This document shows positions 59,114 through 62,495 of a stretch of 64,000 nt of DNA, piece after piece. Where the stretch lies: the IMG/VR virus record IMGVR_UViG_3300023171_000009, positions 1-64,000 of that record; one strand, written 5' to 3'. The notes under the pieces were generated by a model that saw only the letters and a list, made by a program, of their open reading frames with translations, was not told where the DNA came from and did no database searches. Made by a program: the position numbers and the translations under genes. How positions within the stretch are numbered: position 1 is the first letter of the stretch; each line of letters starts with the position of its first letter. Source of the DNA: a virus.

Positions 59114-59126
59114 TGCAACGATTTCA
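59114..59126 (-). repeat. R1 dyad, exact, stop codon and promoter upstream element
   Basis: TGCAACGATTTCACTTTTT on plus; TGA ends the PEP-CTERM gene. Confidence 0.9.
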
Positions 59127-59549
59127 CTTTTTCGGTTTTTTACGGGCAAAAAAGAAGCCGATAACCAATAATCCGATCAAAATCATAATATCAGGCTCCG
59201 GAATAGCGCACGTTCCTGGAACAGGAACCGTAGAAACACTTATAAATTGCGGTCCCTCATACCCTAAAACCACGGATTGCACTGGCACGAAGGGCGAATC
59301 AAATCGGATACTCGTTACGCTTGGCGTATAATTTCGTGTTCCCATGTATTGATACCCGTTAGAAATCGTTCCTACGTTCGGCATCCCTTGGATTGGCCCG
59401 TCAGAAAGACTTGAAAAAGAAGAAACATAAGCTTCCAGAAATACAATCTCCGTTCCCGCAGGAAACATGTAATCGTAAGTGTAAGTATCACCGTTTAAGA
59501 AGGCGGAACCTGTAACGGTATCGAATTGCAGAGTAAGTATAGTGTCCAT
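59124..59549 (-). CDS. protein with C-terminal PEP-CTERM sorting signal
   Basis: 141 aa. The body is beta-rich, with aromatic and Gly-rich segments (YMFPAGTEIVFLEAYVSS, YQYMGTRNYTPSVTS). At residues 116-141 it has IPEPDIMILIGLLVIGF then FFARKKPKK, that is PEP followed by one hydrophobic span and a basic end: the PEP-CTERM signal recognised by exosortase in bacteria that make extracellular polysaccharide. No N-terminal signal peptide is visible, which is odd for the class. May be displayed on or anchored to host cells. Confidence 0.75.
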   Translation of the reverse strand: MDTILTLQFDTVTGSAFLNGDTYTYDYMFPAGTEIVFLEAYVSSFSSLSDGPIQGMPNVGTISNGYQYMGTRNYTPSVTSIRFDSPFVPVQSVVLGYEGPQFISVSTVPVPGTCAIPEPDIMILIGLLVIGFFFARKKPKK

Positions 59550-59592
59550 AGGGTTATATAGTATAGGCTAGATTATAAGTTTTTCAATGCAC

Positions 59593-59627
59593 GAAAAAAC
59601 CCGGACTCCATGACAGAATCCGGGTTA
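59593..59627 (-). terminator. intrinsic terminator after the lipoprotein gene
   Basis: Minus strand AACCCGGA and TCCGGGTT pair (one internal mismatch in the extended stem) followed by TTTTTT. It follows the R1 dyad at 59631-59643. Confidence 0.8.
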
Positions 59628-59630
59628 AAG

Positions 59631-59643
59631 TGAAATCGTTGCA
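59631..59643 (+). repeat. R1 dyad, exact
   Basis: TGAAATCGTTGCA on plus, between lipoprotein stop and terminator. Confidence 0.9.
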
Positions 59644-59647
59644 GAAT

Positions 59648-60076
59648 TTATGCCGCCGTTGACTTTGCCTGTTCGGCAATAGCTTTGATCAACTCGGAAT
59701 AAGGAACTTTCACACGATTTTGATCGTAAGCCACGCTAATCGCCGCGCCTAGCAAAATCCAATGCTCCTTGTCCCCAGCAATGGACAAAACAAGCTTGTT
59801 AATATCGGCTCCCGTGGTGCTTTCATCGGTGGCTACAAGGAGCGTATCCGCTACTTGGGTAATCACGGCAGCTTTTGCGGCGCGATCTTCAGGAGATTTT
59901 GCCTTGCTGAGAACTTTAGTAACAGCCAGCGAAGTTGCGGTTTGTGCTAAAAACGTATAATCCGCAGGGTTTTTGGTGCCGTCCGGGTTGGTAGTTTGAC
60001 ACGCCGTGAAAAACGGCATGATGGCAAAGACCAGAAGCAGGCAAAGCAGATTTTGAAGCATTTTAGGGAATTTCAT
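59648..60076 (-). CDS. lipoprotein, 142 aa
   Basis: A signal peptide with lipobox: basic N-terminus MKFPK, hydrophobic LLCLLLVFAIMPF and FTAC with Cys26 as the lipidated residue. The mature part is a helical soluble domain (SLAVTKVLSKAKSPEDRAAK, ADTLLVATDESTTG). Near a holin-like gene; an outer-membrane spanin is possible but unproven. Confidence 0.65.
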   Translation of the reverse strand: MKFPKMLQNLLCLLLVFAIMPFFTACQTTNPDGTKNPADYTFLAQTATSLAVTKVLSKAKSPEDRAAKAAVITQVADTLLVATDESTTGADINKLVLSIAGDKEHWILLGAAISVAYDQNRVKVPYSELIKAIAEQAKSTAA

Positions 60077-60131: not shown

Positions 60132-60527
60132 CTACTCCTTTTTAAGCTCCGGATCAACTGGAATAATCACATCTGAATTAGCTTCCGCCGTTTGTTTGAT
60201 AGTATCAGCAGCTTCGTTAGTGTCAGGACCGGCAAAACCATCCTCATCAAGCGGCTGCGTAGCGATAGGTGTTTGATTGATAGTTTTTTGCAATTCCTTA
60301 ACCCCCGCTCTGTTCTGAGAGCCTACCCAATCCGCTATAATAGCCCATGCAGTTGCGCCGAAAAACGCGGCCCATCCTAAAATAGTTTCTTGTGGAATGT
60401 TTAAATTCAGCGCAATTACAGCTTTAGTTAATGCAATAGTAGCTAAACTAATAAGAGCCTTCAAAACAAGGCCTTTTGCCCCCATCAGAGAAGTAATGAG
60501 GATTGTTTTAATTGGTTTTGGGTTCAT
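60132..60527 (-). CDS. holin-like two-span membrane protein, 131 aa
   Basis: Two hydrophobic segments, LKALISLATIALTKAVIALN and ILGWAAFFGATAWAIIADWV, then a hydrophilic tail with TKQTAEANSD-like disordered residues. Size and topology fit a class II holin, and an adjacent lipoprotein and coiled-coil protein could form part of a lysis or membrane module. No lysis enzyme is adjacent. Confidence 0.5.
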   Translation of the reverse strand: MNPKPIKTILITSLMGAKGLVLKALISLATIALTKAVIALNLNIPQETILGWAAFFGATAWAIIADWVGSQNRAGVKELQKTINQTPIATQPLDEDGFAGPDTNEAADTIKQTAEANSDVIIPVDPELKKE

Positions 60528-60552: not shown

Positions 60553-61308
60553 TCACTGTCCTAACGGTTTATTCTGCGAAATATCTGGAAAATAGTTAAT
60601 AGGCGGGAGCGTTTGCTCAAAAACCTTAGCCCAAAGTAATCCAGTCATTTGAGAATTATGCGCCCTTGTTAAATTAAGGACTTGAGATTGTGCTCTAAAT
60701 TGCGTTTCAACTTCTTTAAGCTTTTCTCCTACTGACGTTTTCAATACTGCCAGTTCATGGGCTTGATTGTTATATTCTGATTTCAACTCTGCTATGTCAC
60801 GGCCTTTATCGCCTCTATCAACTTCAGAAGCCGTAGCTTTCTGGTTCAAGGAGGCTAGAATTCCGGACGCATTAAATAAGTCCTGAGCATTTCTACTAAC
60901 GGTTGAATCAAGTCTTGAAATATCAGCACGTAAAGGGATTCCATAACTATCAACGTAGCTTCTAACGGTAGAGACGCCCCAAGTCATTAACCCACCAGCC
61001 ACTAAACCAAGGACGGCTATTCCTGTTTGAATCGTAAACTTTTTGTTATCGTCCTGCCCTTTAGTTTTGGAATTTATAGTTTGCGCCAAGCTTTCATGAC
61101 TTTGGTGAATTGCTTTTTCCAGATTTTCCTGATTGCTTCGCTGGATTCTGGAAAGATTCTCCATCCCTTCCTTAGTATTAGCGGCTAAATCAGCTAAATT
61201 TTTAGCAAACGTATTCTGTTGGAGTTCCAGTAAAACTAACCGCTCTCCTAATGCGTAATTACTTACTCTTTTTTCAGTAGTGGTTGGACTATCCGATTCA
61301 TTAGACAT
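60553..61308 (-). CDS. membrane-anchored coiled-coil protein, 251 aa
   Basis: A central transmembrane span (QTGIAVLGLVAGGLMTWGVS at about 94-113) separates an N-terminal coiled coil (KNLADLAANTKEGMENLSRI) from a C-terminal one (AELKSEYNNQAHELAVLKTS). The layout resembles XhlA-type or spanin-like membrane proteins but is larger. Function unknown; lies next to the tail hub gene. Confidence 0.55.
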   Translation of the reverse strand: MSNESDSPTTTEKRVSNYALGERLVLLELQQNTFAKNLADLAANTKEGMENLSRIQRSNQENLEKAIHQSHESLAQTINSKTKGQDDNKKFTIQTGIAVLGLVAGGLMTWGVSTVRSYVDSYGIPLRADISRLDSTVSRNAQDLFNASGILASLNQKATASEVDRGDKGRDIAELKSEYNNQAHELAVLKTSVGEKLKEVETQFRAQSQVLNLTRAHNSQMTGLLWAKVFEQTLPPINYFPDISQNKPLGQ

Positions 61309-61322
61309 AATAATCTTAAAGT

Positions 61323-62495
61323 TTATAAAGTTTTTCGCTTTGCCTTGTTATCCGCTTTTATGATAGCCTTGTTAGTGGCTTTGAGTTGTTTTCTCATCGC
61401 GGCAGCCGCTTCATTAGCGGCCTTTCGTTCAGCTTCTGTAGCGTTTTCTCCTAACCCATTAACTTGGACAGCAGGCTTATCACACTCTGCTGAAGTCACG
61501 TATCCTCCGGTTTTATCAAAAGAATGAGTTACACTCTTTAAATGCCAGTATGACGGCATCTTAATGCCCGTTTCCACATCATAAAACCCTTCGGTTTTTA
61601 TCATCGTCTCTGCCTTAAGCTTAGGGTTTCCTCTATAAAGAGAAAACTCAAAAGAATGCCCCTCTACTTCCAGCATCGAAGCCCGTCCCGCCGCTGCCGC
61701 GTTTGCCAACTCTTCTGTAGCATACACCCCCGGTAAGGCTAGTCTAGCATTTTCTTTGCGATCTGCTTCGCCTGAATCAGTTCTAACAACTTTTACGGCA
61801 TATGAATATTTGCCAGTATCTTTATTATATACATTAGCCACTACTGCCCCGTAATTACTTGTGCTCTGATTTAACCAACTCCAACTAGAACAAGCGTCTT
61901 CTTTTACGGTATCTGATAGTGCTTGGATAGTTCCGACTTTTGCAAATAATAAAGTTTTACCACTAACTTTAAAGCTGGCACCATAACGTAACCCAAGGGC
62001 AGTTAAGAACGATTGATCGGACTCGTTGCGTTGAATCATCGAACTTGCAATAATACCATAAAATTCAGGATCAATTATGGGCGTCATTTCGTTGCGCTGA
62101 GCAACGTGTTCAACAATATCAGCTAATGATTGATTATCGTAAGTAGTGTTATGAGTTTCTTTCCACATTCCTCCGGTAGCCAAAGCGTGAAAATGAAAAG
62201 CAACCTCTCTTCCTCCGGATTTACTTTTTTGAACGCTGGACTCATCAAAGATAAAATCGCCCATGTTAACCATGCCTTCGTATTTAGGCATGTTGGACGC
62301 TTCCTGATAGCCTAAAAATAACGTAGCTTTGGCTCCTCTTTTGGGGATTTGAATAGCGGGAACGGCATCCAATCTAACAACTAACCTATCGTTGTTAAAG
62401 CCATAAGTATCTTGTAAAGTTAACCCTATGAAGCGATCCTGTAAACGGTCTGTATAGTCAATTCCGTTTATGTAAAATATGTATCCGGGTTTCAT
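61323..62495 (-). CDS. tail hub protein, P2 gpD family
   Basis: 390 aa. The layout YIFYINGIDYTDRLQDRFIG with YDNQSLADIVEHVAQRNEMT and SFLTALGLRYGASFKVSG fits the late-control gpD/T4 gp27 family, a hub under the tail spike. The C-terminus is basic and Ala/Lys-rich. Overlaps the gpU gene as ATGA, as in P2-like phages. Confidence 0.8.
   Translation of the reverse strand: MKPGYIFYINGIDYTDRLQDRFIGLTLQDTYGFNNDRLVVRLDAVPAIQIPKRGAKATLFLGYQEASNMPKYEGMVNMGDFIFDESSVQKSKSGGREVAFHFHALATGGMWKETHNTTYDNQSLADIVEHVAQRNEMTPIIDPEFYGIIASSMIQRNESDQSFLTALGLRYGASFKVSGKTLLFAKVGTIQALSDTVKEDACSSWSWLNQSTSNYGAVVANVYNKDTGKYSYAVKVVRTDSGEADRKENARLALPGVYATEELANAAAAGRASMLEVEGHSFEFSLYRGNPKLKAETMIKTEGFYDVETGIKMPSYWHLKSVTHSFDKTGGYVTSAECDKPAVQVNGLGENATEAERKAANEAAAAMRKQLKATNKAIIKADNKAKRKTL

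Follow-up and report, generated by a model that had tools for sequence, protein, structure and literature searches.

A small gene of a contractile-tailed phage was found to encode a protein that ends in a PEP-CTERM sorting-type tail, but that lacks the N-terminal signal peptide usual in such proteins. The gene lies on the minus strand of the window, the 64,000-nucleotide stretch analysed here (positions 1 to 64,000 of IMG/VR record IMGVR_UViG_3300023171_000009). The original prediction proposed that its product could be a virion or host-surface protein sorted to the envelope, or could mimic host PEP-CTERM proteins. An envelope-sorted phage protein is plausible: the tail is real, phage-borne proteins of this class recur, and the translation signals of the phage fit a host lineage rich in PEP-CTERM proteins, although the usual signal peptide is missing and the role in the virion found no support. 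The stronger result is that phage genomes repeatedly encode PEP-CTERM proteins that do have a signal peptide.

The PEP-CTERM tail and its gene

The open reading frame (ORF) has 141 codons, starts with ATG and ends in ...CAIPEPDIMILIGLLVIGFFFARKKPKK, in the order PEP, hydrophobic helix and basic tail. Residues 115-139 scored 22.9 bits against Pfam PF07589 (curated cut-off 20.7) and 18.5 bits against TIGR02595 (curated cut-off 16), which bears out the PEP, hydrophobic span and basic tail described in the original prediction, with a margin over the curated cut-offs of only about 2 bits. The PF07589 score of the tail in a DNA search was 24.6 bits. The domain, about 24 residues long and made up of PEP, transmembrane helix and basic cluster, is present, and it stands at the extreme C-terminus, with fewer than 10 residues after it, as the match stops at residue 139 of 141. 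The PEP is followed by Asp-Ile, whereas Ser-Thr is common. AlphaFold2, run on the single sequence, predicted the C-terminal helix at residues 119-136 with a pLDDT of about 78. This ORF holds the sole PF07589 match in the virus record of 98,476 bases to which the window belongs, and none of 50 related phage records had one at E <= 0.1.

Chance was assessed with a profile made from 45 independent viral PEP-CTERM tails, scored without the HMMER composition correction, in which the tail reached 19.4 bits. When the last 39 residues were shuffled in full, none of 5000 permutations attained this score; with the helix and basic tail kept, 70 of 5000 did so, and the median of these local shuffles was 14.2 bits. 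Local shuffles put a PEP 0-3 residues from the helix in 1.0% of cases, and whole-body shuffles did so in 0.1%. By the same test a C-terminal helix with basic tail is found in none of the other minus-strand ORFs of the phage, and multiplicity within the genome therefore does not arise. It is unlikely that the motif is an accident. Conservation lends the tail no support, since no relative of the body was found in phage, viral-contig or genome collections (tblastn in INPHARED; pattern scans of viral and genome contigs). The ORF scores as coding at 0.12 bits per codon, with the other frames negative, but falls below all genes in a reference set of 28 from phage (0.28 +/- 0.08 bits per codon, lowest 0.155).

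Table 1. Features of the PEP-CTERM gene and its surroundings in the window
Feature	Position	Strand	Basis
Copy of dispersed repeat TGAAATCGTTGCA, whose TGA serves as stop codon for the PEP-CTERM gene	59114..59126	-	
141-residue ORF with C-terminal PEP-CTERM sorting-type domain, without signal peptide	59124..59549	-	ORF list; PF07589 and TIGR02595; sole ATG
PEP motif, membrane helix (about 119-136) and start of basic tail (residues 115-139)	59133..59207	-	HMM ranges; AlphaFold2
Body (residues 1-114), Lys/Arg-low, Ser/Thr-rich, probably beta-rich	59208..59549	-	Composition; AlphaFold2
Promoter-like TTGAAA-16-TATACT, 10 nt before the ATG	59560..59587	-	Best of region, 10/12
Intrinsic-terminator-like hairpin of 13 pairs, between lipoprotein and PEP-CTERM genes	59598..59626	-	RNA fold
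Second TGAAATCGTTGCA copy, opposite orientation	59631..59643	+	
Upstream neighbour, small lipoprotein (lipobox FTAC)	59648..60076	-	Sequence; crude signal scan
Small membrane protein, holin-like by topology only	60132..60527	-	Hydrophobic segments; marginal PHROG match only
Membrane-anchored coiled-coil protein, weakly phrog_276	60553..61308	-	E 0.002
GPD-like tail baseplate hub; the contractile-tail module ends with this gene	61323..62495	-	VgrG-related 1.6e-7; Phage_GPD 1.1e-5, below cut-off

Between the hub and an AAA+ ATPase, the window carries in succession the genes for the coiled-coil membrane protein, the holin-like protein, the lipoprotein and the PEP-CTERM protein (Table 1), and the PEP-CTERM gene is in the lysis region of the phage. 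The lipoprotein had no PHROG or INPHARED match and is possibly, from its sequence, an outer-membrane lysis lipoprotein. The PEP-CTERM gene looks like its own transcription unit, because a strong terminator-like hairpin (RNA fold of 59540-59640, z = -2.85) and a promoter-like site both lie in the 98-nt gap that precedes it. The promoter-like site is weak, as promoter counts overall were not above those of shuffles. The mRNA may be leaderless.

The two repeat copies in Table 1 form a 20-bp inverted repeat around the gene. The repeat itself is dispersed: TGAAATCGTTGCA is the consensus of a 13-bp imperfect palindrome with about 75 copies, 42 of them exact, spread in either orientation over 98 kb at intervals of about 1.3 kb (window 131-62771, loci L002 and L003), and the window holds 51 copies against 2.15 expected. 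Forty of the 75 lie between genes or at gene edges, as compared with 8% of random positions, and in eight cases a gene takes its stop codon from the repeat, which may be an operator or a stoperator-like site. The repeat was not found in other viral contigs, where an 18-base extended form gave two single matches, which is about chance.

Topology and alternative explanations

The body of 114 residues contains no Lys and two Arg (Lys+Arg 1.8%, against 11.7% over the ORFs of the phage), with 11.4% Ser, 11.4% Thr (Ser+Thr 23%), 0.9% Cys and a net charge of about -7. The published pattern of PEP-CTERM bodies is few basic residues, low Cys and more Thr, Ser and Asn (PMC1569441); by composition the body matches this pattern, except that Asn, at 3.5%, is not raised. 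AlphaFold2 placed eight strands in the body at low confidence (mean pLDDT 44, single sequence). The PEP-CTERM protein had no PHROG match, and so none to the lysis families (holin, spanin).

The absence of an N-terminal signal peptide, already noted in the original prediction, is real. The N-terminus MDTILTLQFDTVTG is not hydrophobic, and the frame is open for just six codons 5' of the ATG, without any other start. A signal peptide that was frame-shifted or missed upstream was considered and rejected, as the 98 nt upstream contain the terminator and, in all frames, lack a hydrophobic start; one hidden in another frame is ruled out because this stretch is taken up by the terminator and the promoter-like site. 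The ORF thus departs from a usual feature of PEP-CTERM proteins, one that lies outside the HMM definition, since signal peptides are present in about 97% of them (PMC1569441, Haft and colleagues). With the PEP-CTERM/EpsH exosortase system (TIGR02595/PF07589; PMC1569441) the protein shares the extreme C-terminal PEP, hydrophobic helix and short basic tail, a Ser/Thr-rich and basic-poor body, and homology confined to the tail. It differs in being phage-encoded, in lacking the signal peptide, and in having a partner exosortase that is only putative.

The explanation that we favour, though tentatively, takes the ORF to be an accessory gene with a transcript of its own; it would encode an envelope protein that bears an exosortase-type sorting signal and that the host processes to the surface. 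The gene would be a moron in the late or lysis region, expressed from its own transcription unit. With no signal peptide, the C-terminal helix would insert into the inner membrane, and the body of 114 residues, negatively charged and almost free of Lys and Arg, would cross as a translocated N-tail, leaving the PEP at the periplasmic face and the Arg-Lys-Lys in the cytoplasm. Host exosortase would then cut at the PEP and pass the body to the surface, where it would alter the envelope late in infection, for example by blocking superinfection or changing the exopolysaccharide layer. In inner-membrane proteins of the E. coli ProW type, a tail of about 100 residues can be translocated without a signal peptide if it is poor in positive charge, and the charge of the body, by analogy, would suit such translocation. 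We infer the topology, N-tail translocation, host processing and surface function of the protein, the function because the body has no detectable relative. The explanation hangs on the proposed translocation without a signal peptide, and N-tail translocation of 114 residues is unusual, which was counted against it.

A plain C-tail-anchored inner-membrane protein with a cytoplasmic body, such as a lysis-timing or superinfection factor, would also have no signal peptide and could be expected in a lysis region; the PEP would then be due to chance or structure, and exosortase uninvolved. Most of the HMM score does come from the helix and basic tail alone, as the shuffle median indicates. This alternative is nevertheless rather unlikely: a Ser/Thr-rich body almost free of Lys and Arg would be unusual among the cytoplasmic proteins of this phage, the basic residues after the helix favour a cytoplasmic C-terminus, and the curated cut-offs of two PEP-CTERM models were passed.

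The gene might instead be a non-functional relic, an ordinary PEP-CTERM gene acquired from a host or another phage that has lost its 5' end together with the signal peptide. Its codon score under the reference set would fit, as would the signal peptides of nearly all other viral PEP-CTERM proteins, the lack of a Shine-Dalgarno site (though this is true of the whole phage) and the inverted repeat copies that flank it (though the repeat occurs about 75 times). We consider a relic improbable, as the ORF is intact, its ATG stands just after a promoter-like site, and the upstream sequence is a terminator with no signal-peptide remnant in any frame. A virion or tail-fibre-like protein, its C-terminal helix anchored in the particle or, at entry, in the host membrane, would suit the nearby tail and baseplate genes and the beta-rich body, but is very improbable given that the protein has no similarity to structural PHROGs, that tailed virions have no membrane and that the gene is a separate transcription unit.

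PEP-CTERM proteins in other viral contigs

Two pattern scans of IMG/VR for PEP-CTERM tails gave 50 and 20 loci, in 69 distinct contigs (L091-L140 and L141-L159). Like the window protein, those found are phage-borne, with similar tails and bodies low in Lys and Arg. They differ in being mostly longer (about 96-440 residues), in having mostly PEPST- or PEPA-type tails, in bodies unrelated to that of the window protein, and in nearly all having signal peptides: by a crude test about 64 of the 69 ORFs carry one, and two others are cut by contig ends. TIGR02595 was passed by nine of the ten proteins tested.

Many of these genes have evident phage surroundings, some of them in clear phage cassettes. 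In L143 the PEP-CTERM gene is between the terminase small subunit (phrog_51, 2.6e-16) and a head-tail adaptor (phrog_332, 2.6e-151), and in L101 and L105 such genes are near a portal-like protein and a major head protein. M15 endolysins adjoin PEP-CTERM genes in L102 and L111, the latter with a tail collar gene nearby; a GH108 endolysin does so in L139. In L133 and L100 the neighbour is a phage helicase or methyltransferase. Host DNA may be present in a few contigs where several PEP-CTERM genes occur (L109, L113). A family of secreted PEP-CTERM proteins of about 240 residues, whose mature part often starts with LQIAFSDG, was seen in unrelated phage contigs (L091, L093, L102, L111, L121, L122, L133, L137 and others), beside helicase, methyltransferase or endolysin genes. 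A PEP-tail match in MT836954 was rejected as chance, since it lies inside a long unrelated ORF of another frame, and a PHROG scan with PEP-CTERM consensus tails gave nothing significant.

Phage-borne exosortase substrates thus appear to recur, with PEP-CTERM tails in 69 viral contigs, some in phage cassettes. No exosortase gene was found in the phage record or in 49 PEP-bearing viral records, so the enzyme would have to come from the host. Searches of the open-access full-text literature found no paper on phage PEP-CTERM proteins; one paper has listed, as gene transfers from cells, virus-borne members of a family with a putative exosortase-interaction domain, with no comment on sorting (PMC11003980). 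A broader proposal, that phages of exosortase-bearing Gram-negatives repeatedly carry exosortase-substrate morons that remodel the host surface in the course of infection or lysogeny, the window holding one that acts via N-tail translocation, we regard as doubtful.

The phage and its host

The phage has a contractile tail, with sheath, GpU and GPD-like hub genes, as well as portal and major capsid protein (MCP) genes, and it encodes DNA polymerase I, a DnaB-like helicase and a RecA-like protein. It is an orphan, as no MCP relative in IMG/VR exceeds 43% identity, and no near phages were found with the tail hub as probe. Among cultured phages that have this tail order, the closest is Aeromonas phage HJ05 (OQ594355), which shares the order of major capsid, sheath, tail hub and AAA+ ATPase, and has lysis genes between hub and ATPase that include an apparent amidase endolysin (read from sequence, not HMM). 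HJ05 differs in having no relative of the PEP-CTERM gene, and in its translation signals: a Shine-Dalgarno-like motif precedes 41 of its 49 genes, and 65 of 80 MCP genes of relatives, as compared with one of 90 genes in this phage (11% of random positions).

This near-absence is a strong sign of adaptation to a host in which Shine-Dalgarno sites are scarce. Such bacteria with an intact anti-Shine-Dalgarno sequence are mainly Bacteroidota, with some Verrucomicrobiota such as Akkermansia and IMCC26134 (PMC10783764), and the motif counts point to a host in one of these groups. Verrucomicrobium spinosum has 65 PEP-CTERM proteins (PMC1569441). The host is probably, on balance, a member of the Verrucomicrobiota; tRNA, prophage and bacterial-homologue evidence gave no confirmation, and a glycosyltransferase used as a host marker had no match in genome contigs.

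Two DXD-type glycosyltransferases are encoded by the phage (window 24227-25543 and L002:14584-15366), the second adjoining tail genes. Five consecutive fibre-like genes, each with a Sec-type signal peptide at its start, were also observed (L002:7167-13987; record 70167-76924), one with a GDSL hydrolase-like domain and one with a K1-lyase C-terminal domain. Sec-type signal peptides are unexpected in tail fibres, whose assembly takes place in the cytoplasm, and the corresponding HJ05 genes have none.

If it is routine for phages to provide a host sorting enzyme with substrates, this would be an unrecorded route by which the envelopes of environmental bacteria, and with them flocs, biofilms and exopolysaccharide, are remodelled, and exosortase would deserve testing as a host factor in phage resistance. 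A substrate that functions without a signal peptide would, in addition, put to the test the present model of exosortase sorting, in which Sec export is assumed to come first.
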